Below, piece after piece: positions 7,517 through 19,924 of a stretch of 63,463 nt of DNA. Under the pieces are notes generated by a model. The model saw only the letters and a program-made list of their open reading frames with translations. It was not told the origin of the DNA and ran no database searches. This stretch comes from Balneolales bacterium (GTDB lineage: Bacteria > Bacteroidota > Rhodothermia > Balneolales > Cyclonatronaceae): contig JAIULZ010000006.1 in NCBI GenBank assembly GCA_022565805.1, positions 1 to 63,463 on the forward strand, given 5' to 3'. A program made the translations under genes and the position numbers. Numbering within the stretch: position 1 is the first letter of the stretch; each line of letters starts with the position of its first letter.

Positions 7517-8854
7517 TTAATTCGACCGGGATGCAGAATCAGGATTCAGGGATTCGATGAATTTGTGCGCAAAATAGCCTTCAAGGGCAAGCATAGAAGC
7601 CGCAATGGAATTCAGCCGCCCCGCTGCATCTGTAAGCTCTGTGAAATATCTCATAAGTCTTTCCTGCTCGAAAATAAGCTCGCTAAATGGCGAAACTCCG
7701 GCGCTGTACTCCTCAAGCACAAGCCTGAAGGTAGTTTCAGAGTCTGGAATAAGGCTGTTTTTTAGTCTTTCTACGCTTCTGTATACCGCCTCAAACTCCG
7801 ATTCCAGCTCGTGCCAGTCGCTTTGTAATTGTAGGGTGATGGCTTCCCGGTCGAAATTTGCCGCTCGTTGTAAATGCTGCGCCTGCTGCAGCCCGGAGCG
7901 GTATGCGGGTCGGGATAGCGGAATAGAAATGCGTAGCTGACCAAAAAAAGAAGTCCTGCGGTTTCCGGGCATCATCATGGAAGCGTTTGGTCCCATGACT
8001 TCGAATCCAAGACCGAATGAGGGGTAAAAAGCCAGTCTTGCAGCTTCGGCCGCTGTTTCTGCTGCTCGTGTTACCGCTTCTCCCTGCTGTACCGCAGGAT
8101 GGTGCCCGATTTGATCTGCCGAGAACATATTCTCGTCAACAAATTCGAAAGCCCAGTAAACTGCCGAGGCATCTATTGAACCCGGCTCGGCTGCGGCAGA
8201 AATGCGAAAGCGGTCTTTGAGGCCGATAAGTCGAAATTCCTCAGCTTCAAGCCGGGTTTTCCACTCGTCTATAGTTAGCCGAATGCGCATAAGCCCCGAT
8301 TGTCTGCTTGCCGAGGCTTCGTAGGCAGCCCGTTGCTGTCGTTCCAGACTTTCCAGAATCTGAAGTTGTTCTTTATACCAATCTATTCTGCTTTGGCTTT
8401 CTGCAATCGAAAACCAGAGTTTGGTCCATTCATAACCGAGATCGTTCAGGCTTTTCATGGCGCCATAGCCTGCTGCATCTGCCTCGTAAATGGCTTGTAA
8501 CCGGGCCGCAGATCGAATGCCAAACCATGGAAACATCTGGAATACGCCGGCTGTAATCTGTTCATAAACCGGTCCGGTATTTTCAGGATTTATAAAATAC
8601 TGCATCATGAACTCCGGATCGGGCAGTGAAGCGCGCTGTGTGGGTACTTCTGCTGCAGCGGCCGACCGCGCAGATGCAGATTTTGTTTCCGGGTGTTTCT
8701 CAAGTGCTTCAGATAATATGGCGGTGAGCTCAGCAGGAAGCAGCCCGGAGCCGCCATGCTGAGCCTGCCCGGTTTCAATTCCGGCTTGCATCAGCAGAAT
8801 TGCCACAAATAAAAGGGAGGCAAGCAGCTTTGCGCGCGATTTGGAGATAATCAT
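7517..8854 (-). CDS. TolC-family outer-membrane channel of the metal-efflux pump
   Basis: This 445-residue protein begins with a basic signal sequence (KSRAKLLASLLFVAILLMQ). Two outer-efflux repeats follow, rich in long amphipathic helices (ILSEALEKHPETKSASARSA, SWTKLWFSIAES-like). Conserved phrases such as LRISIPLSRPAYRSG and the helical VLEEYSAGVSPFSELIFEQE are typical of CusC/TolC-type channels. The start codon overlaps the stop of the cusA-like gene by 4 bp (ATGA), indicating translational coupling. No lipobox was seen, unlike E. coli CusC. It would form the outer-membrane exit duct of the pump. Confidence 0.9.
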   Translation of the reverse strand: MIISKSRAKLLASLLFVAILLMQAGIETGQAQHGGSGLLPAELTAILSEALEKHPETKSASARSAAAAEVPTQRASLPDPEFMMQYFINPENTGPVYEQITAGVFQMFPWFGIRSAARLQAIYEADAAGYGAMKSLNDLGYEWTKLWFSIAESQSRIDWYKEQLQILESLERQQRAAYEASASRQSGLMRIRLTIDEWKTRLEAEEFRLIGLKDRFRISAAAEPGSIDASAVYWAFEFVDENMFSADQIGHHPAVQQGEAVTRAAETAAEAARLAFYPSFGLGFEVMGPNASMMMPGNRRTSFFGQLRISIPLSRPAYRSGLQQAQHLQRAANFDREAITLQLQSDWHELESEFEAVYRSVERLKNSLIPDSETTFRLVLEEYSAGVSPFSELIFEQERLMRYFTELTDAAGRLNSIAASMLALEGYFAHKFIESLNPDSASRSN

Positions 8855-11800
8855 AATACATCCTCTTTGTTTGAATTAGTTTCGGTACGTTCAGCTTTAT
8901 TTTTGAACTTTTGTTCCTGCCATAAGGCGTACAGAACCGGTACCACGAATAGCGTTAAAAGCTGTATACTCATCCCGCCAACGGCTGGTATAGCCATAGG
9001 AATCATAATATCTGAACCTCGGCCTGTTGAGGTAAGAATGGGAATTAAAGCCAGAATAGTGGTTGCGGAGGTCATTAAACACGGGCGAATACGTCGCATA
9101 CCAGCAGCTACTACTGCCTCCCGAATCTCTTTAATATTTGCCGGCGGGTTCTCACGGAAAGACTGTTTCAGGTAGGTTCCCATTACCACGCCATCATCCA
9201 CGGCAATACCGAATAGTGCCAGAAAACCTACCCATACGGCAACGCTCAGGTTAATCGTGCCCATGTTGAAGAGATCCCGGAATGAGGTCCCGAACAGATG
9301 AAAGTCCATAAACCAGGATTGTCCGTAAAACCAAAGCAGGATAAACCCGCCCGCCCATGCAACCGCAATTCCCGAAAAAATGATGGCTGCAACCACACCC
9401 GAGCGAAACTGCAAATACAGAATCATAAAGATGATGAGCAGGGAAAGCGGAATAATGACCTTTAGCCTTTCTTCGGCCCGGATTTGATTTTCGAACTGAC
9501 CCACGAAGCTATAACTTGCTCCATCGGGTACAATAAGCCTGCCGGATTGCACCGCATCGCGGAGCGCGTCGCGCGCGTTATCAACGGCAGTGATTTCTGC
9601 GACGGAGCGATCCCGGTCGAAAATGACATAGTTAATCAAAAACGTATTTTCGGAGCGTATTTCGGCCGGTCCTGTGGTGTAATGCAGGTTCACAAGATCG
9701 CTAAGCGGTATTTGTGCGCCATCGGATGCGGCAATAGGGAGTCGGAGAATATCGTCGGGATGGCTCCTGAAATCCCGTGCAAAGCGAATTCGAACGGGAT
9801 ACCGCTCTCTGCCCTCAACAGTGGTTGTGAGTGCCCGCCCGCCGATAGCGGTTTCGATGACCTCCTGCACATCCATCACAGACAAGCCGTAGCGTGCAAT
9901 CTGAAGGCGATCCAATTCGAGTTCGATATAGGGTTTCGCGGATGTCCGGTCGGCAAAAACAGAAGCCGGGTTTACTCCGGGTACATCCTGAAGAACCGAT
10001 TCTATATCGAGAGCAAAGGATGAAATCGTATCTAAATCCGGTCCGCTCACTTTTACGCCCATTGGAGCCCTCATGCCGGTCTGAAGCATAATAAGACGTG
10101 TTTCAATGGGCTGAAGCCGCGGGGCGCTTGTGGTTCCCGGAATACGTGATGCGGCCAGAATTTCATTCCAGATGTCGCCCGGATTTGTAATATGATCGCG
10201 CCACTGCCTGTAATAGCGTCCGCGGGAATCCGGAATGAGGTTTCCGCTGTCGTCGCGTACGAAGGAGCCATCCTCGTACCTGAACCGCTGTCTCATGCCC
10301 TGCTCGTTTGTCTTGTATTCGCTCTTATAGGTGATTACAGTCTCGAACATCGACATTGGCGCCGGATCAAGGGCTGTTTCGGCGCGTCCTGCTTTGCCTG
10401 CCACAATATTTACTTCGGGAATGGATGCAATGCGCATATCCATTTTCCTCATTTGGTCAACAATTTCCTCCACACCGGCATGAGGCATAGTAGTTGGCAT
10501 CAACAGGAAAGAGCCTTCGTCGAGTGCAGGCATAAACTCTCTGCCCATGCCCGGAAAACTGCTGCTCATTGCTTTCCAGAGCCTGGTTTCTTCAAGTGAG
10601 GGCAAAAGGTTAGTAGCGGGAGAGAAAACTTTTCCGAAACCCTGCCAGCTTAGTAAACCCAAAAGCACAATAAGAACAGGGAAAGCGAGAAAAGCGGCCT
10701 TTGACCGCAGGAAAATTCTTAGAAGGCTAGGGTAAAAAATGATAAATCCTCGGAAAAGTGCGAGCACCGTTCCTACGATTATCAAAACGAAAATCATATT
10801 CAGCAACAAGCTGTTTGCGGGTCCCAGTGGTAGCCAGTAGCCGGCAAAGAGCCAGCCAATGGTAAGAATAATAAGCGCAATGGCTGCATAATTGTAGTAG
10901 TTGCGGGACCATTTCTGCTGTTTATCGGCCCAGGCGACAAGGTTAATAAGGCCAAGTCCACACAATATTACGCCTGTCCAGGGTGCTACAAAAAAGCCAG
11001 CTGCAACACCGCCTGCAACAAGAATAATATTCCAGAAAAGCTGCGATTTTCTACTGCTTATTTTTCGGGTAAACAGCCAGTGTGCAAGCGGTGGAAGAAC
11101 CACTAAGGTTAGAAGAATTGCTGCAATAAGCGTGTAGGTTTTTGTATAGGCAAGCGGCCTGAATAGTTTGCCCTCTGCTGCAATCATTGTAAATACGGGC
11201 AGAAAACTCACAATAGTTGTAGACACGGCTGTTAAAACGGCAGAGCTTACTTCGGTTGTTGCCTTAAAAATAATTTCTTTTTTATCTGCGCCGGGTTCGG
11301 CTTCCTCCAGTCGCCTTAGCATATTTTCGGTTAGAATAATACCCATGTCCACAATGGTGCCAATTGCAATGGCAATTCCAGCAAGGGCCACCACATTGGC
11401 TTCAACCCCGGTGTAGCGCATTAAAATAAAGGTGATGAGTACAGCGGCGGGCAGTAAGGCAGATACCAGAAACGAAGCTCTAAGGTGCAGTACCATTACG
11501 ATAATCACGATAATGGTAATTAGAATCTGCAGCGTTAAAGCCTCCTGAAGCGTACCAAGCGTTTCCTGAATGAGTTCGGTACGATCGTAAAATGGCACAA
11601 TGGTTATCTGTGATTCCCTGCCGTCTTCTAAAGTGCGGGTCGGTAAGCCGGGCGAAACTTCTTCAATGGCGCGCTTTACATTTTCGATTACAGCCATAGG
11701 ATTTGCTCCATACCTGCTTACCACCACGCCACCCACTGCTTCGGCCCCGGCAATATCGAGGACACCTCGGCGCTGTGCGGGTCCGAGCTGTACCCGGGCC

Positions 11801-12669
11801 ACATCTTCAATACGGATGCCTGTTCTTGCGTCACTATCGACTTTCACGATGGCATTGGCCAAATCCCTGCTGTCTCTTATGTAGCCCAGGCCGCGAATGA
11901 GGTATTCCACCCGGTTAAGTTCGAGCGTGCGGGCACCTGTATCCATGTTGGATTCCTGCACGGCGCGCATCACATCGCGAACAGAGACTCCGTATTGCTG
12001 CATTGCGATGGGGTCTAATTCTATTTGGTACTCTTTCACAAAACCGCCAATACTGGCAACTTCGGCCACGCCGGAAGCGGAAGTAAGCGAAGGCTTTACA
12101 AAAAAGTCCTGAATTGAGCGAAGTTCGTGCGGATCCCAGCCTCCAGCCGGGTTTCCATCTTTATCTCTCCCCTCAAGGGTATACCAGAAAATTTGACCCA
12201 GCGCCGTAGCATCCGGGCCGAGAGATGGTTGTACGCCTTCGGGCAACGTACCGGGCGAAAGGGAGCTGAGTTTTTCCAGTATTCTTGCTCTTGACCAATA
12301 AAACTCGATGTTGTCTTCAAAGATGATGTAGATACTCGAAAAACCAAACATCGTGGTGCTTCGAACCGTGCTAACGCCGGGTATGCCAAGCAGTGCCGAT
12401 GTAAGCGGGTAGGTAATTTGGTCGTCTATATCTTGGGGAGAGCGGCCCGGCCACTCGGTGAAAACAATTTGCTGATTTTCGCCGATATCGGGAATAGCAT
12501 CTACAGGAACCGGACTGTTGGGCAGGCCAGTTTGCCAGTTAAAAGGAGCCGTTATAAGTCCCCAGACTACCAGAATAAGCAGCAGCAATAAGCTGATAAT
12601 CTTGTTTTCAATAAAAAATCGTATGGCTGAGTGTAGCATAAAAGCGCACGTATAGGATTGATGCAGCAT
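8851..12669 (-). CDS. cusA: CusA-like heavy-metal efflux RND transporter
   Basis: This is a large inner-membrane proton-driven pump of the HME-RND family. The ATG at 12669 gives 1272 residues; the ATG at 12639 (MLHSAIRFFIENK) fits the family start better. Visible features are the first helix (IISLLLLLILVVWGL), the porter motifs PGRSPQDIDDQITYPLTSAL and GFVKEYQIELDP, the TM4 region IAIGTIVDMGIILTENMLRR, the Met-containing LQTGMRAPMGVKVSGPDL, and the TM10 region FGIAVDDGVVMGTYLKQSF. It is longer than typical CusA (about 1050) because extra hydrophobic segments (KSQLFWNIILVAGGVAAGFF to about FIIFYPSLLRIF) lie in the centre. Its stop overlaps the TolC-like gene. It would export Cu(I)/Ag(I) from the periplasm or cytoplasm. 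Confidence 0.93.
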   Translation of the reverse strand: MLHQSYTCAFMLHSAIRFFIENKIISLLLLLILVVWGLITAPFNWQTGLPNSPVPVDAIPDIGENQQIVFTEWPGRSPQDIDDQITYPLTSALLGIPGVSTVRSTTMFGFSSIYIIFEDNIEFYWSRARILEKLSSLSPGTLPEGVQPSLGPDATALGQIFWYTLEGRDKDGNPAGGWDPHELRSIQDFFVKPSLTSASGVAEVASIGGFVKEYQIELDPIAMQQYGVSVRDVMRAVQESNMDTGARTLELNRVEYLIRGLGYIRDSRDLANAIVKVDSDARTGIRIEDVARVQLGPAQRRGVLDIAGAEAVGGVVVSRYGANPMAVIENVKRAIEEVSPGLPTRTLEDGRESQITIVPFYDRTELIQETLGTLQEALTLQILITIIVIIVMVLHLRASFLVSALLPAAVLITFILMRYTGVEANVVALAGIAIAIGTIVDMGIILTENMLRRLEEAEPGADKKEIIFKATTEVSSAVLTAVSTTIVSFLPVFTMIAAEGKLFRPLAYTKTYTLIAAILLTLVVLPPLAHWLFTRKISSRKSQLFWNIILVAGGVAAGFFVAPWTGVILCGLGLINLVAWADKQQKWSRNYYNYAAIALIILTIGWLFAGYWLPLGPANSLLLNMIFVLIIVGTVLALFRGFIIFYPSLLRIFLRSKAAFLAFPVLIVLLGLLSWQGFGKVFSPATNLLPSLEETRLWKAMSSSFPGMGREFMPALDEGSFLLMPTTMPHAGVEEIVDQMRKMDMRIASIPEVNIVAGKAGRAETALDPAPMSMFETVITYKSEYKTNEQGMRQRFRYEDGSFVRDDSGNLIPDSRGRYYRQWRDHITNPGDIWNEILAASRIPGTTSAPRLQPIETRLIMLQTGMRAPMGVKVSGPDLDTISSFALDIESVLQDVPGVNPASVFADRTSAKPYIELELDRLQIARYGLSVMDVQEVIETAIGGRALTTTVEGRERYPVRIRFARDFRSHPDDILRLPIAASDGAQIPLSDLVNLHYTTGPAEIRSENTFLINYVIFDRDRSVAEITAVDNARDALRDAVQSGRLIVPDGASYSFVGQFENQIRAEERLKVIIPLSLLIIFMILYLQFRSGVVAAIIFSGIAVAWAGGFILLWFYGQSWFMDFHLFGTSFRDLFNMGTINLSVAVWVGFLALFGIAVDDGVVMGTYLKQSFRENPPANIKEIREAVVAAGMRRIRPCLMTSATTILALIPILTSTGRGSDIMIPMAIPAVGGMSIQLLTLFVVPVLYALWQEQKFKNKAERTETNSNKEDVL

Positions 12670-12947: not shown

Positions 12948-13511
12948 TCAAATAAGGAAAGTGCAGTTGAGTGTACGCAAAGGAGGGCTTGGCGCATACA
13001 CTTGATGAGATGAAGCATGGAATAAATAAGAAAGCTTATCCGAATTTTGAGCGTTTAGATAATCCGAAAAAAGAGTGTTACTCCAAAAAGACTCTGTTAA
13101 GAAAATATGTGAGTCTGCATTTTTATCGAAGTTTGATTGGGGGAGGACAGCATTTTTATTTACTGCTGCGAGTGGAGAAACGGGAGTACTTATAATACAA
13201 GGACAGTCTGCGCATGAAGTAACAGTAAAATCTGTTTCGGGTGTATGACAGGATGGTTCTTTTTTATCTAACAGATTTATTAAGCGGAAATCAGTGGTTT
13301 TTTTGTCAATAGAATTGATATCCGAGTTAGCGCAACAAGATGCAGCGGCATTTTCATGGGCAAAAATAGTTTTTCCGGGAGTAACCCAGCTACATAACGT
13401 AAACAAGCCCATACCGCAACTGATAAGCAGCGGCATGAGCATGTTAAAAATAAGTACAGACACAACTGAAGTTGTGCCCCACTTCATATATGCAGGTGAA
13501 TTTGACATCAT
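12948..13511 (-). CDS. Cysteine-rich membrane-anchored protein of the copper cluster, unknown
   Basis: This 187-residue protein has an N-terminal hydrophobic segment (SVVSVLIFNMLMPLLISCG) that could be a signal or anchor. It then has several cysteines, including AAASCCANSD and TSCADCPCIIS (a CxxCxC cluster), and ends VYAPSPPLRTLNCTFLI. The tail is like those of small uncharacterised proteins that accompany metal-efflux pumps. I cannot assign a family. It starts 2 bp after the HMA chaperone gene and lies 278 bp upstream of the cusA-like gene, all on one strand. A periplasmic metal-binding or sensing role is inferred from the cysteines and the neighbours. Confidence 0.65.
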   Translation of the reverse strand: MMSNSPAYMKWGTTSVVSVLIFNMLMPLLISCGMGLFTLCSWVTPGKTIFAHENAAASCCANSDINSIDKKTTDFRLINLLDKKEPSCHTPETDFTVTSCADCPCIISTPVSPLAAVNKNAVLPQSNFDKNADSHIFLTESFWSNTLFSDYLNAQNSDKLSYLFHASSHQVYAPSPPLRTLNCTFLI

Positions 13512-13513
13512 TT

Positions 13514-13741
13514 TTACATGGGAGCTTCTATTCCGGCAAATGTAAAGCCAGAATTATCAATTATTTCTGCAACAGTGGTTTCGGAAAAAATTCCTGTAAC
13601 CAGAGCGCTGCCATTAACATGATCTACCTCTGCCATGCTAATATCCGGATGCTTTTCTAGCTGTTTCTTGAGCCTGTCTGAGCACCCGGTACATGTCATT
13701 CCTTCGATTTTAACCTGCAACGAACGTTCCATAATGTACAA
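13514..13741 (-). CDS. Small HMA-domain copper chaperone (CopZ-like)
   Basis: This 75-residue protein is a single heavy-metal-associated domain. The metal motif GMTCTGC lies near residue 14-20, followed by the expected alpha/beta pattern (LKKQLEKHPDISMAEVDHVN, VAEIIDNSGFTF). Such proteins bind Cu(I) through the CxxC pair and pass it to a P-type ATPase or pump. The ATG at 13741 gives MYIMERSLQVKIEG; the ATG three codons on (13732) is an alternative. It is the first recognisable gene of the run leading into the Cys-rich protein and the RND pump. Confidence 0.88.
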   Translation of the reverse strand: MYIMERSLQVKIEGMTCTGCSDRLKKQLEKHPDISMAEVDHVNGSALVTGIFSETTVAEIIDNSGFTFAGIEAPM

Positions 13742-14422: not shown

Positions 14423-16894
14423 TTATAATCTTTTTATGCGAAGACTGTTGCTTACAACGCTTACCGAACTCAAGGCCATGGCAGCAGCGGCAAAAACCGG
14501 ACTTAATATACCCGCAGCTGCTAATGGAATACCGGCAGAGTTGTATACAAAGGCCCAAAATAAATTCTGTCGTATAATTCGTAAAGAACCGCGTGATAAG
14601 GCAATCGCCTCAGCAACTTTGTCGAGAGATTCACCCATTATGGTAATATCTGCCGAAGACATCGCAAGGTCTGTGCCACCCGCCAGCGCAATGCCTAAAT
14701 CGGCCTGCACCAGAGCTGCTGCATCATTAATGCCATCCCCGACCATGGCTACCCGCATTTCCTGCTTTTGTAATTTCTCTACCGCTGCGGCTTTCTCCCG
14801 GGGCTTTACTTCTGCAATAACTTCGTCTATACCAACTATGCCGGCTACATAAGCGGCGGTTCGGTACTGATCGCCGGTTAGCATAACGGGCTTTATACCC
14901 ATCTTTTTTAAACGGGAAATAAAAGCTTTGGCATCTTCGCGGATTTCATCACCAACCGAAATATAGCCGGCTACATCGCCATCAATCTTAACGATAATTA
15001 CGGTTGCGCCACTGTTTTGTTCGTTAAGGAAGCGTTCATCCTTTTGGTCATTTTCATCATCCAGCAACTCAACCGAGCCCAGCGAAAGAGTATGATCTTT
15101 AACAACGCCCTTTATACCTGTTCCGGCGAGGGTTTCTGAGGAAGAAGGTTTGGCTGTTTCTAATCCCAGCTCCCGGGCATGTGCTACAATTGCCTGCGCA
15201 ACAGGGTGATCAGACTCCTGCTCTAATGATGCAGCTAATCTAAGCATTTCATCTTTAGAATAGCTATCTGTCAAGCATTCGGCTTTGCGCACTTTCATCT
15301 TGCCTTTGGTAAGTGTACCCGTTTTATCCAGCAATATAGTGTCGATTTTTCGGGCTTCTTCCAGAGTTACTGCGTCTTTTATAAGAATTCCTTTCTCAGC
15401 TGCCCGGGCCGAACCAACCATAATCCCAGTGGGCGTTGCTAGTCCCAGGGCGCAGGGGCATGCGATAATTAAAACGGCCACCATATTCACAAGCGCTTTG
15501 GCAGGATCACCACCAATAAAAGTCCAGCCGATGAGGGTGAGTAGCGCAATAGCTATAACTACGGGCACAAATACTGCAGAAACCTTATCTACTAACCTTT
15601 GTATGGGTGGTTTTGAGCCCTGAGCTGTTTTTACAGTTTCGATAATTTGCGACAGAGCTGTTTCACTGCCAACCGCAGTGGCCTGCATCACAAAAGCCGT
15701 TGCGGTATTTCTTGTGCCTCCGGTTAATGGGGCGCCTTTGGTTTTATCTACGGGTAAGCTTTCACCGGTCATCATAGATTCGTCTATTGATGGCGAACCA
15801 TCCAGCAAGATGCCGTCTACCGGAACCTGTTCGTAGGCTTTTACCAGCAGGCGATCCCCTTCATTTACTTTGCTAAGCGGCACGGTTTGAGGTGTGGAAC
15901 TTCCGCTGAAATATTTATTAGCCCGCTGTGGATAAAGCTCCATGAGGCCCGAAAGAGCGTCCCGGCTTTGATGTCTTGCTCTTTCCTCCATCCATTTACC
16001 GAGTAAAATAAGCGCTATAATAATTGCTGCGGTATCGAAATACACATCCATTGGGGTAACGAAGCCACCTTCAACTCCCCAGAAAACGGCATAGGCGCTA
16101 AACAGCAGAGCAGAGCCGGTACCAAGTGCAACAAGGGTGTTCATATCTGCCCGAAGGTGGCGGGCTGATTTCCACGCGCCTGTAAAAAAGCTATTCCCTG
16201 CATAAAACAAGATGAAAGAGGTAAGCACGAGCTGAATCAGGTTCCATTGGAAGAGAATCGGATGAACAGCATCGTGCCAGGCCGGAATAAACATTGGCCC
16301 CATATCCATAATACTTACCAGGATGGCGAGTGGAAGGGCAATCCAGAACTTTCGCTTAAAACTAAGTGAGGTGCTCTTTTTTTGTGCTACAGGCTCTTCA
16401 TTTTGTTCTGCAGGTTCTGTGTAGCTTGCTTCATACCCGGCGTCTTGTATGGCCTTAATAATTGGGTTGATCTGCTCTGATTTAGCACGGAAGCGGGCCG
16501 TTTCTGTGGCCAGATTTACTGAAATATCTGAAGTGCCGCTTACCCTGCCAATGGCTTTTTCTACTCCAGCTACGCAGCTTGCGCAGGTCATTCCGCTTAT
16601 ATTCAGCTCGGTATCCACTAACCCGGTGCTTTTATCTTCCTGGATTGATGCTTCGTATCCGGCATCTGATATAGCTTGCGCGATTTGCTGTTGCGTAACT
16701 TTCTCAGGATCGAAGTAAACCGAAGCCTGCTCTGTAGCCAGGTTTACTTCGGCTTTGGAAACTCCATCGAGTCGAAGAACAGATTTTTCGACCCCGGCTA
16801 CGCAACTTGCGCAAGACATGCCGGAGATTTCCAGCCAAATATGCCGGGATTCTGATTCAAGCGTTTCGGGATTTTTTATTTCGGGAGTCGTCAT
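14423..16894 (-). CDS. copA: Copper-translocating P1B-type ATPase CopA
   Basis: This 823-residue pump exports cytoplasmic Cu(I) using ATP. Two N-terminal HMA domains carry GMSCASC (Cys28/Cys31) and GMTCASC (about residue 102). Eight membrane helices follow. All P1B-1 landmarks are visible: MMTGESLPVDK (actuator), IACPCALGLATPTG (CPC in the transport helix), DKTGTLTKGK (phosphorylated Asp), HPVAQAI (nucleotide-binding HP) and MVGDGINDAAALVQADLG. It lies between the HMA-AraC regulator gene, about 430 bp upstream, and the chaperone/RND group, all on the minus strand. Copper induction is likely but no operator could be recognised. Confidence 0.96.
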   Translation of the reverse strand: MTTPEIKNPETLESESRHIWLEISGMSCASCVAGVEKSVLRLDGVSKAEVNLATEQASVYFDPEKVTQQQIAQAISDAGYEASIQEDKSTGLVDTELNISGMTCASCVAGVEKAIGRVSGTSDISVNLATETARFRAKSEQINPIIKAIQDAGYEASYTEPAEQNEEPVAQKKSTSLSFKRKFWIALPLAILVSIMDMGPMFIPAWHDAVHPILFQWNLIQLVLTSFILFYAGNSFFTGAWKSARHLRADMNTLVALGTGSALLFSAYAVFWGVEGGFVTPMDVYFDTAAIIIALILLGKWMEERARHQSRDALSGLMELYPQRANKYFSGSSTPQTVPLSKVNEGDRLLVKAYEQVPVDGILLDGSPSIDESMMTGESLPVDKTKGAPLTGGTRNTATAFVMQATAVGSETALSQIIETVKTAQGSKPPIQRLVDKVSAVFVPVVIAIALLTLIGWTFIGGDPAKALVNMVAVLIIACPCALGLATPTGIMVGSARAAEKGILIKDAVTLEEARKIDTILLDKTGTLTKGKMKVRKAECLTDSYSKDEMLRLAASLEQESDHPVAQAIVAHARELGLETAKPSSSETLAGTGIKGVVKDHTLSLGSVELLDDENDQKDERFLNEQNSGATVIIVKIDGDVAGYISVGDEIREDAKAFISRLKKMGIKPVMLTGDQYRTAAYVAGIVGIDEVIAEVKPREKAAAVEKLQKQEMRVAMVGDGINDAAALVQADLGIALAGGTDLAMSSADITIMGESLDKVAEAIALSRGSLRIIRQNLFWAFVYNSAGIPLAAAGILSPVFAAAAMALSSVSVVSNSLRIKRL

Positions 16895-17327
16895 AAGTAA
16901 ATAGGTCGTTTTGATTCACTCTGTGTGATATGGGCGAAATAACACTTATAACTTATGGGAACTAAAGCCTTTTTACTTTCATCTAAACAGAAAGTTCGTA
17001 TATAATTTTCGGTTTTGTACCAATCCAATCATTTAATCCCACTCTTTACAGGGTAAAGTGGTTTTCTAAGTATTTAAAAAAAGTAACTGGAAAAATGGCC
17101 AGATTTTTATATTTTTATATTTTTATGTAGGGCATATCCGTTAGATCCTGTATTCGTTCAGCAAAGCTGACTTAGGACATCTGGTATGCCCTATTTTTTT
17201 TATCAGCTATTTTGCCCGCTACTAAGTACTTTGCAGCCCTCCCTTTTTTGCGATCCCGATTTATGTACCTCTCTGTCGGTTAATTTTGCCTGCCCGATGA
17301 AATTCATTTTCCGTAAAACATTACGTC
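16895..17327. other. copA upstream region with structured elements
   Basis: This gap between copA and its likely regulator contains a structured-RNA candidate (17128-17201). It also has a smaller hairpin near 17037-17060 (CTTTAC-agg-GTAAAG core) and an A/T-rich repeat TATTTTTA around 17105-17125. The copA promoter and leader must lie here on the minus strand. Confidence 0.6.
17128..17201 (+). ncRNA. Candidate structured small RNA or terminator in the copA upstream region
   Basis: TAGGGCATA (17128-17136) pairs with TATGCCCTA (17185-17193). Nested pairs are CC/GG (17138-17139 with 17183-17184), TCCT/AGGA (17146-17149 with 17174-17177) and CAGC/GCTG (17159-17162 with 17166-17169). Eight T follow on the plus strand. 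No plus-strand gene lies upstream for over 3 kb, so this is either the end of an antisense or small RNA or a structured leader of copA read from the other strand. Strand and function are inferred. Confidence 0.45.
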
Positions 17328-17903
17328 TTAAATAAGCTCTCTTGATACACGATCACCCGGGTTCTTTCTCCATTCTCCAGGCGATTTTCCAGTATATTTA
17401 CGAAATTGAGCCGAAAAGTGCTGTGATGAGCTGTAACCAAGTTGCAGGGCTATTTCACTAACACTTAGCCCTGTACTATTCGATGTGAGCAATTCCTTAG
17501 CCCGCTCTGCTCTAAATTCAATAAGTGTTTTTTCGATGGTCTTACCAGCTTCATTTTTATACTGTTCGCTAATGTGCCCGTAATGTCTCTGCAGTTCTTT
17601 TGATATAAAAGCAGATAGTTTTTCGGGTGCTTTGTTTTCTTCTACGCGCTTAAGATAGTGCAGCAGTGCCGCTTTAACGGCAGTGGCATACCAGCCGCTA
17701 TCGGGTTCAATGAGATCGAAACCACGAGCGGCGAGATTTGTTTTCAATCGATTCTTTTTGTCTTGAGCAATGGAGGCTTGTTCTTCCAGAATGGCTTCAC
17801 CAAGAGTAACTTTCGCCGGGTTAAAGCCCAAATGCTGTAATTCTTCCTCTACGGCTTCAATACAGCGCGGACAAACCATATTTTTTATGCGGAGTTTGAT
17901 CAT
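17328..17903 (-). CDS. HMA-like domain fused to AraC-type helix-turn-helix regulator
   Basis: This 191-residue protein starts MIKLRIKNMVCPRCIEAVEE. That is an HMA-like ferredoxin fold with Cys11/Cys14 (CPRC) and a following strand VTLGEAILEE. The C-terminal half (about 95-190) is an AraC/XylS DNA-binding domain: GLSVSEIALQLGYSSSQHFS and AQFRKYTGKSPGEWRK. Such short CxxC-AraC proteins occur next to copper genes in Bacteroidota, but their ligand is not well characterised. The position directly upstream of copA, on the same strand, suggests a copper-sensing activator of copA and the efflux set. That role is inferred. Confidence 0.87.
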   Translation of the reverse strand: MIKLRIKNMVCPRCIEAVEEELQHLGFNPAKVTLGEAILEEQASIAQDKKNRLKTNLAARGFDLIEPDSGWYATAVKAALLHYLKRVEENKAPEKLSAFISKELQRHYGHISEQYKNEAGKTIEKTLIEFRAERAKELLTSNSTGLSVSEIALQLGYSSSQHFSAQFRKYTGKSPGEWRKNPGDRVSRELI

Positions 17904-18088: not shown

Positions 18089-19924
18089 TTACTCTACCGT
18101 AACGCTTTTCGCCAGATTTCGCGGCTGATCGACATTACATTTGCGGTAAACGGCAATCTGATACGAAAGAATTTGCAGCGGAATTACTGTAAGTAGTGGT
18201 GTAAGCACGTCGTGCGTTTCGGGTATGGTAATGCAGTACTCGGCAAGATTACGAACATCGTGATTATTTTCGGTTGTAATGGCAATAATACGGCCCTTAC
18301 GTGCCCTTACTTCCTCGATATTACTTATGATTTTCTCGTTGGTATGGTCTGTAACTGCAATTACAACTACGGGCATATACTCATCGATAAGAGCAATAGG
18401 GCCGTGCTTCATTTCGGCAGCAGGATAGCCCTCGGCGTGGATATAAGAAATTTCTTTAAGTTTAAGGGCGCCTTCAAGAGCAACGGGGAAGTTATAGCTT
18501 CGACCAAGGTACAGGAAGTTAGGAGCGTAGGCAAAAAGACGTGAAATCTGATCAATTTCTTCCTTTTTCTCCATAATCTCAGCAACTTTTCCGGGAATTT
18601 CATGCAGTGCTTTAATCATAGCAGCGGCATCGGTTTCGCTTAACACCTTACGACGCTGACCAAGCAGAATAGCCATCATGCTAAGAACGGTAACCTGCGC
18701 GGTAAAAGCTTTGGTTGAAGCAACCCCGATTTCGGGTCCGGCATGGGTGTAAATACCGGCATCTGTTTCGCGGGCGATAGTAGAGCCAACCACGTTGCAA
18801 ATGCCGATTACAAGGGCGCCGCGTTTACGGGCTTCCCTAATAGCTGCGAGCGTATCGGCTGTTTCCCCACTTTGAGAAATAACGAGCATTACATCTTCCG
18901 GACCGATAAGCGGATCGCGATAGCGAAATTCGGAGGCATATTCAACTTCTACAGGAAGTTTGGAAATGTACTCAAAAAGATATTCGCCAACGAGGCCGGC
19001 GTGCCAGCTTGTGCCACAGGCAGCGATGATGAGTCGTTTAGCGTTGGTTAAACGATCCAGAACGCGCTCGATGCCGCCAAGCACAATTTTATTTTGGTCT
19101 GGCAACAGTCTGCCGCGCATACAGTCTGCAATTGTAACACTTTGCTCATGAATTTCTTTGAGCATGAAGTGGGGGTAGCCGCCTTTTTCTATTTGTTCTA
19201 TACTCATTTCGAGCTCATGTACTTCTTTAGTGAGCTCGATATTACTAATGGTTTTTACCTGATAGCCATCTCTTGAAATAATAGCCATTTCGTCGTCGTC
19301 CAGATAAACCACTTTATTAGTGTATTCGATAATTGGAGAAGCATCGGAGGCAATAAAAACTTCATCTTCTCCAATACCCAGCAACAGCGGGGAGCCTTTT
19401 CTGGCTACAATAATCTTGTCTTTTTCATGCTTATTAACAATGGCAATACCATAGGTACCATCAACTTGCTTCAGGGCCATTTGAACAGCCGTTTCGAAAT
19501 CAACCTTGCCTACAAGCTCGATTTCCTCAATAAGGTGAGCCAGTACTTCGGTATCGGTTTCTCCATCAAATATGTGGCCTTTTTTGGTTAGTTCTTTTTT
19601 GAGTGCATCGTAATTTTCGATAATTCCGTTATGAACCAGCGCAAAGTTGTGTTTGCCATCCCAGTGAGGATGGGCATTTACGTCGTTTGGTTCTCCGTGA
19701 GTTGCCCAGCGTGTATGACCTATACCCACATTGCCTTTAATGCCGCTTTCAATAAGCATGTTTTCAAGGTTTATTACCTTGCCTTTTCCTTTTCTAACTT
19801 TTACGTCTCCATTAAGAATAGCAATACCGGCTGAGTCGTAGCCACGATATTCAAGTCGTTTAAGTCCTTTGATGATCACATCTGATGCATCTCTGAATCC
19901 AATGTATCCGACGATTCCGCACAT
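18089..19924 (-). CDS. glmS: Glutamine-fructose-6-phosphate aminotransferase GlmS
   Basis: This cytoplasmic 611-residue enzyme makes glucosamine-6-phosphate, the first step to UDP-GlcNAc. The mature N-terminal Cys is in MCGIVGYIG. The glutaminase domain shows GHTRWATHGEPNDVNAHPH and ALVHNGIIENYDAL. Two SIS isomerase domains follow with ACGTSWHAGLVGEY, VISQSGETADTLAA and LKLKEISYIHAEGYPAAEMK. The C-terminus NVDQPRNLAKSVTVE is canonical. Length is normal for the family. It lies divergently from a GlmU-like gene of the same pathway, with 440 bp between them. No glmS ribozyme-like leader was recognised. Confidence 0.98.
   Translation of the reverse strand: MCGIVGYIGFRDASDVIIKGLKRLEYRGYDSAGIAILNGDVKVRKGKGKVINLENMLIESGIKGNVGIGHTRWATHGEPNDVNAHPHWDGKHNFALVHNGIIENYDALKKELTKKGHIFDGETDTEVLAHLIEEIELVGKVDFETAVQMALKQVDGTYGIAIVNKHEKDKIIVARKGSPLLLGIGEDEVFIASDASPIIEYTNKVVYLDDDEMAIISRDGYQVKTISNIELTKEVHELEMSIEQIEKGGYPHFMLKEIHEQSVTIADCMRGRLLPDQNKIVLGGIERVLDRLTNAKRLIIAACGTSWHAGLVGEYLFEYISKLPVEVEYASEFRYRDPLIGPEDVMLVISQSGETADTLAAIREARKRGALVIGICNVVGSTIARETDAGIYTHAGPEIGVASTKAFTAQVTVLSMMAILLGQRRKVLSETDAAAMIKALHEIPGKVAEIMEKKEEIDQISRLFAYAPNFLYLGRSYNFPVALEGALKLKEISYIHAEGYPAAEMKHGPIALIDEYMPVVVIAVTDHTNEKIISNIEEVRARKGRIIAITTENNHDVRNLAEYCITIPETHDVLTPLLTVIPLQILSYQIAVYRKCNVDQPRNLAKSVTVE

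Follow-up and report, generated by a model that had tools for sequence, protein, structure and literature searches.

A putative copper-responsive AraC-type regulator with an HMA-like domain upstream of copA in Balneolales and other Bacteroidota

A small AraC-type protein encoded beside copA in a Balneolales bacterium raises the question of whether a chaperone-like domain, fused to a DNA-binding domain, could sense cytosolic copper and control the copper pump. We analyzed the 63,463-nucleotide stretch that carries the gene (contig JAIULZ010000006.1, positions 1–63,463, assembly GCA_022565805.1; here called the window), together with homologous loci, genomes and plasmids of Bacteroidota.

Domain structure of the regulator and its locus

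A sequence-only reading of the window had placed a probable copper sensor at 17328–17903, without naming a strand. The interval holds one open reading frame of 191 residues on the minus strand, and the plus-strand frame is riddled with stops. The protein starts with MIKLRIKNMVCPRC and carries cysteines at positions 11 and 14, exactly the CxxC pair stated in that reading. The AraC helix-turn-helix proposed as its fusion partner is confirmed by Pfam, as HTH_18 matches residues 101–180 (E-value 1.3e-18; 67.5 bits, cut-off 33.6) and HTH_AraC scores 48.3 bits (cut-off 26.6). Structural comparison of an AlphaFold2 model gives Z-scores of up to 14 with AraC-family DNA-binding domains (model residues 70–184). 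The regulator thus contains the C-terminal two-helix-turn-helix domain of AraC/XylS proteins (PF12833/PF00165). Only AraC helix-turn-helix models match it: the MerR-type CueR model TIGR02044 does not exceed its cut-off, and the helical-bundle fold of CsoR (PF02583) returned no match in Pfam/NCBIfam searches.

A single-sequence Pfam search of the regulator gave no match to PF00403 (HMA), and we therefore call the N-terminal domain HMA-like rather than a member of the Pfam HMA family. The ferredoxin-like fold suggested for it earlier is borne out by a family profile, the AlphaFold2 model and structural comparison. The profile, built from 85 homologues at loci drawn across the phylum, matches HMA domains over positions 2–69 (ATP7B, 3e-14; bacterial CopA, 1e-7; CopZ, 2e-5) and AraC-type proteins in its second half, and hhalign of the regulator domain against local HMA domains returns a probability of 76% (P-value 2e-5). 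Modeled with the family alignment (mean pLDDT 92), residues 1–66 adopt the β-α-β-β-α-β arrangement of HMA domains (strands 2–7, 29–33, 36–39 and 63–65; helices 12–24 and 47–59) with MxCxxC in loop 1, followed by helix 71–88 and the AraC domain. GolB, ATP7B, CopZ and Atx1 align with the domain at Z-scores of about 7–8. A few non-metal ferredoxin-like folds reach values comparable to those of the copper chaperones, and the fold alone is thus no proof of chaperone kinship. We regard loop conservation as the decisive feature for the predicted chaperone-like identity of the first domain: among the 85 homologues Met9 and Cys14 are invariant (85/85 each), Cys11 is kept in 84 and Arg13 in 82. The residue preceding Cys11 is Val, Cys or Ala and never Asp, which is usual before the first Cys in Zn/Cd-type HMA loops.

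Table 1. Features of the regulator and its surroundings in the window
Feature	Positions	Strand	Basis
CusA/CzcA-family heavy-metal RND pump, same metal-resistance block	8851..12669	minus	TIGR00914 over cut-off
Small CopZ-like HMA protein, possible further target	13514..13741	minus	PF00403 7e-12
copA, P1B-1 Cu(I)-exporting ATPase with two HMA domains, presumed target	14423..16894	minus	CPC, NX6YNX4P and MX2SSX5 all present
Candidate operator CCGAAAATTATATACGA, about 100 bp before copA start	16996..17012	minus	Balneolales PWM
AraC-HMA regulator gene	17328..17903	minus	ORF, 191 aa, ATG start; HTH_18 1.3e-18; 85-member family alignment
AraC-type DNA-binding domain, residues 96-181	17361..17618	minus	Pfam HTH_18/HTH_AraC; structure comparison
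Helix 71-88, joins sensor domain to DNA-binding domain	17640..17693	minus	AlphaFold2 model
N-terminal HMA-like ferredoxin-fold domain, residues 1-66	17706..17903	minus	AlphaFold2 model; family profile; structural Z 7-8
Cys11-Pro-Arg-Cys14, candidate Cu(I) site within K-N-M-V-C-x-R-C	17862..17873	minus	Conservation in 85 homologues
glmS, conserved upstream neighbor in Balneolales, no functional link	18089..19924	minus	Next upstream, same strand, 15 loci

The regulator gene does lie directly upstream of copA, as had been proposed: copA comes next downstream in the same orientation, after a 433-bp gap, and its 823-residue product is the sole TIGR01511 match over cut-off in the genome. The corresponding gap measures 113 bp in a second genome of the genus (G022) and 118 bp in a third (G104). 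Within the window's gap a strong hairpin (17127–17196; minimum free energy −26 kcal/mol, z −4.7 on the plus strand) sits between araC and the candidate operator and adds to the length of the gap; it has a T-run at its 3′ side on the plus strand and no plus-strand gene ahead. We rejected it as a repeated element, since it is single-copy in the genome. A perfect inverted repeat, CTTTAC-AGG-GTAAAG (17044–17058), lies about 150 bp upstream of copA and was not seen in those gaps of relatives that were inspected. Further along the block, a 187-residue, Cys-containing putative exported protein is encoded between the CopZ-like gene and cusA (12948–13511, minus strand); it has no significant Pfam or NCBIfam match.

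Family distribution, gene linkage and other copper sensors

Matches to the fusion, here called the AraC-HMA family, were found in 142 of 296 sampled Bacteroidota genomes (E ≤ 1e-10) and in 31 plasmid records, all from Bacteroidota genera. The plasmid copies among those listed are mostly annotated as AraC family or helix-turn-helix regulators, and plasmid copies adjoin genes for metal P-type ATPases, cupredoxins, SO_0444 Cu/Zn efflux proteins and bilirubin oxidases. The regulator therefore belongs to a large Bacteroidota family and is no rare oddity.

Linkage was assessed at 105 loci with open reading frames called in each: 100 segments from the sampled genomes, reaching at most ∼15 kb and centered on family members, and five Balneolota loci from a genome-contig scan. 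A CPC P-type ATPase is encoded at most four genes away in 74 of the 105 tree rows, where ∼0.5 would be expected by a rough estimate that ignores relatedness. The ATPase is the next same-strand gene in 35 rows, and a small CopZ-like gene takes this place in 19 more. All three P1B-1 Cu(I) motifs are present in 70 of 80 linked ATPases. Gaps between regulator and pump range from 31 to 433 bp and mostly measure 60–150 bp. Balneolales preserve the gene order glmS-araC-(CopZ)-copA, and at 15 loci glmS directly precedes the regulator on its strand. Other neighbors in the family include CusA-type pumps, copper-resistance multicopper oxidases (TIGR01480-like) and HYC_CC_PP proteins. No CPC pump lies close by in the other 31 of the 105 rows, which comprise neighbors of other metal genes as well as orphans.

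We looked for CsoR, CueR and CopY in the window's genome and found no convincing standard cytosolic copper sensor. It has no CsoR-family gene, its best CueR-model match is unconvincing (E-value 3.6e-4), and its one BlaI/CopY relative contains no cysteine and adjoins a BlaR1-like peptidase. CusRS-type two-component copper sensors act on periplasmic copper. Across the phylum, none of 292 Bacteroidota genomes holds a CueR match over cut-off; some Balneolales encode MerR proteins that score 110–137 bits on the CueR model and could be CueR-like. CsoR-family genes occur in 84 of the 292 genomes, only 9 of which also carry an AraC-HMA gene, versus about 40 expected (Fisher p 8e-18), a shortfall driven largely by a single GTDB family, f23. 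CsoR is concentrated in f23, where we found no AraC-HMA match in the sample, and one copper sensor has possibly been replaced by another there. A 2024 copper-gene survey of the marine Bacteroidota species Bizionia argentinensis names MerR, CopY-like and other candidates, reports the known copper sites to be missing from the MerR and CopY-like ones, and makes no mention of AraC (PMC11213822). Searches of open-licence papers turned up no account of an AraC-HMA copper regulator, although a subscription paper could exist, and this absence agrees with the earlier remark that the design appears little studied.

A direct-repeat candidate operator and the limits of the family

De novo motif searches of the gaps between regulator and pump returned TTTCCAAAATTnTGTAAC in 39 non-Balneolales gaps (LLR 207, versus 59–62 for shuffled gaps) and, in a separate search, AAAAATTTTACACAT in 18 Balneolales gaps (LLR 168, versus about 60 for shuffles). 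The candidate operator consists of a half-site of ∼11 bp, AATTnTGTAAC, directly repeated at exactly 21 bp. In full it reads AATnTTRYAAA-N10-AATTnTGTAAC, with the half-sites two helical turns apart. Scored with leave-one-out matrices over both strands of the whole ∼14-kb locus, the gap site ranks first in 24 of 39 cases, where chance would give 0.15. With the second half-site as matrix, the sole strong direct repeat appears at exactly −21 bp (mean 5.5 bits); the other tested offsets average −9.8 bits (S.D. 3.5), and the best inverted arrangement is weaker. A Bacteroidota −7 box, TAnnTTTG, follows the site by 20–21 bp in 28 of 34 cases, with ∼2% expected per site, and the candidate operator occupies the place of the −33 element. 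Scanning 1.2 Mb of loci with a 32-bp matrix yields 77 sites, more than half of them right before genes for P-type ATPases, CopZ-type or HMA-containing proteins. In three Rufibacter loci (L057, L072 and L087), direct-repeat sites precede His-rich (HSHTHEHSHHHGHSH) genes resembling cation-diffusion facilitators, which are possible further targets.

In AraC-family activators, the activating dimer occupies two half-sites at a 21-bp spacing that immediately precede the core promoter (araI1-I2), and a site in place of the −33 element is at the usual position of this family's class II activators. The candidate operator is, by this comparison, of AraC-dimer geometry at an activator position, and we therefore favor an activator model. 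The 21-bp direct repeat appears to be a previously unreported candidate operator.

The direct repeat near the promoter, typical of AraC/XylS regulators, is found family-wide; in the window only its first half is clear. When the window is withheld from training, a Balneolales PWM places positions 16996–17012 at the top of the 63 kb (12.8 bits, versus 9.4 for the next site), and a degenerate form of the site has its sole zero-mismatch match in the genome there. Three other genomes of the genus carry CCCAAAAAATATATACAAA (G022 and G112) or CCAAAAATTTTATACAAA (G104) at the equivalent position after araC. The second half-site in the window is poor and the dimer site there incomplete; binding may rest on one strong half-site. 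The conserved parts of the repeat differ between Balneolales and the other loci, and for this reason the non-Balneolales PWM, which mostly picks the same gap site in Balneolales, gives it a modest rank (29 of 126,892 positions in the window). Genome-wide near-matches to the degenerate site number 34, versus 62 for a reversed control, and are thus not commoner than the control, so that no wider regulon can be read in the window's genome.

Several branches of the family depart from this pattern. The window's genome encodes a second AraC-HMA paralogue (L002, 1501–2061) with the loop MVCLRCK, which belongs to an orphan clade not linked to metal genes; we found no direct repeat around it. A member of this clade in another genome (L152) has Cys11 replaced by Ser. 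Direct-repeat sites lie before other genes next to orphan-clade regulators in L152 (7590–7622) and L207 (7910–7942), and the clade may keep its DNA-binding preference with different targets. Another subclade (L125, L128, L133 and L135) carries MVCSHC, in which Arg is replaced by His, and sits beside ATPase-IB2_Cd (Zn/Cd-type) pumps and CzcA-like RND pumps; three of the four loci contain related repeats whose half-sites are altered. This suggests a changed metal specificity, and since such proteins neighbor Zn/Cd pumps, metal identity does not follow from the fold in itself. The AraC-HMA family is probably not uniformly copper-specific, with a few subclades sensing something other than copper. 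We also collected a Hymenobacter-dominated sample of 80 loci by a pattern scan seeded with KNMVCPRC and left it out of the cysteine-conservation counts. Pump linkage there amounts to 14 of 80, and the operator is mostly absent. In a held-out operator test on 75 loci (mostly Hymenobacter), 20 had a match of at least 12 bits, 14 of these directly after the regulator. The operator pattern therefore does not extend to the majority of the Hymenobacter orthologous group.

Proposed mechanism, alternatives and comparison with known systems

Both the gene linkage and the candidate operator at copA expected of a cytosolic copper-responsive copA regulator were found at this locus. The idea of a probable copper sensor gains support from the phylum-wide association of the regulator gene with those for Cu(I) P1B-1 ATPases, CopZ-type chaperones and multicopper oxidases and from the conserved putative operator. 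We infer copper binding, DNA binding and the direction of control from sequence, and estimate at roughly 0.77 the probability that the regulator is a cytosolic Cu(I)-responsive transcription activator of copA. In this model, an increase in cytosolic Cu(I) would load the Cys11/Cys14 pair of the HMA-like domain, either directly or through handover by a CopZ-like chaperone or a CopA HMA domain. Helix 71–88 would relay the change to the DNA-binding domain, and the regulator, sitting as a dimer on the direct repeat with 21-bp spacing that immediately precedes the copA core promoter, would then recruit RNA polymerase. A broader proposal, toward which we lean only slightly, is that AraC-HMA proteins form an undescribed class of cytosolic copper sensor and serve as a main copper-export regulator across much of Bacteroidota, where the class would largely replace CueR, CsoR and CopY and act as an activator at the direct repeat, and that changes in and around its CxRC loop gave rise to Zn/Cd-type and non-metal offshoots that keep related operators.

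The same gene and operator could also work with the logic of CopY and CsoR, the apo-protein blocking copA and Cu(I) releasing it. A site in this position might indeed exclude polymerase, but it ends 20–21 bp before the −7 box and replaces the −33 element, the usual class II activator place, and its 21-bp repeat matches the established araI1-I2 activator geometry; we consider a copper-released repressor unlikely. We also assign a low probability to a sensor of another metal (Zn, Cd, Ag or Hg), or of a range of soft metals without specificity for Cu(I). Thiophilic metals of several kinds bind to CxxC sites, and the MVCSHC subclade keeps company with ATPase-IB2_Cd and CzcA-type RND pumps, whereas the window's own neighbor is a P1B-1 Cu(I) pump, like 70 of the 80 linked pumps, and no Asp precedes Cys11. 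Ag(I) would act as a gratuitous inducer and may be sensed as well.

Copper might also not be the regulator's own signal, if the HMA-like domain served as a docking or redox domain that senses thiol oxidation or, by contact, the loading of CopZ or of CopA HMA domains. HMA domains are known to pair with one another, a disulfide is possible at CxxC, and CxRC with its near-invariant Arg is unlike ordinary chaperone loops. Yet the linked genes are copper genes rather than redox genes, and Met9, part of the MxCxxC motif of copper chaperones, is invariant, which makes this an improbable account. That an ordinary AraC regulator unrelated to copA came to lie here by chance, with a vestigial CxxC, we find hardly credible: orphan clades do exist, and one of their members has lost Cys11, but linkage and operator are conserved across families and the CxxC is almost invariant.

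Taking the regulator to be a Cu(I)-responsive activator of copA, the AraC-HMA family offers a concrete candidate regulator, with likely target promoters and defined candidate residues, for cytosolic copper sensing in Bacteroidota. Members of this phylum abound in animal guts and in soils and sediments under selection by copper, and some AraC-HMA copies reside on plasmids. Like CueR, the regulator appears to be cytosolic, to sense through two cysteines and to activate a copA gene that is often nearby. CueR, however, is a MerR-type protein whose dyad operator sits within the over-long spacer that separates −35 from −10, whereas the AraC-HMA regulator combines an AraC DNA-binding domain and an HMA-like sensor with a direct-repeat candidate operator upstream of the −7 box. 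CsoR (PF02583) and CopY are likewise cytosolic copper sensors of copA operons, but have other folds and work by derepression. With the AraC/XylS activators AraC, MarA and SoxS the regulator shares its DNA-binding domain and an araI1-I2-like 21-bp direct repeat; its sensor is HMA-like, whereas that of AraC is of the cupin type and MarA and SoxS have none. Archaeal CopR/CopT similarly join a metal-binding domain and a helix-turn-helix in one cytosolic protein but use a TRASH-type metal domain and an Lrp-type helix-turn-helix. In Ada, thiolate chemistry switches an AraC-type DNA-binding domain, in response to methylation at a Zn-Cys4 site rather than to copper; Ada entered our list of structural matches through its AraC-like part only. 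The HMA domains of CopZ/Atx1 and CopA/ATP7B share the fold and the MxCxxC loop, whereas the regulator's domain has an MVCxRC loop with a near-invariant Arg, is fused to a DNA-binding domain and falls below Pfam HMA detection. Our best reading is that cytosolic copper sensing by an HMA-like/AraC fusion would represent a new architecture; if so, a metallochaperone-like domain would itself be the sensor of a transcription factor, a design to be added to those of the known copper regulators.
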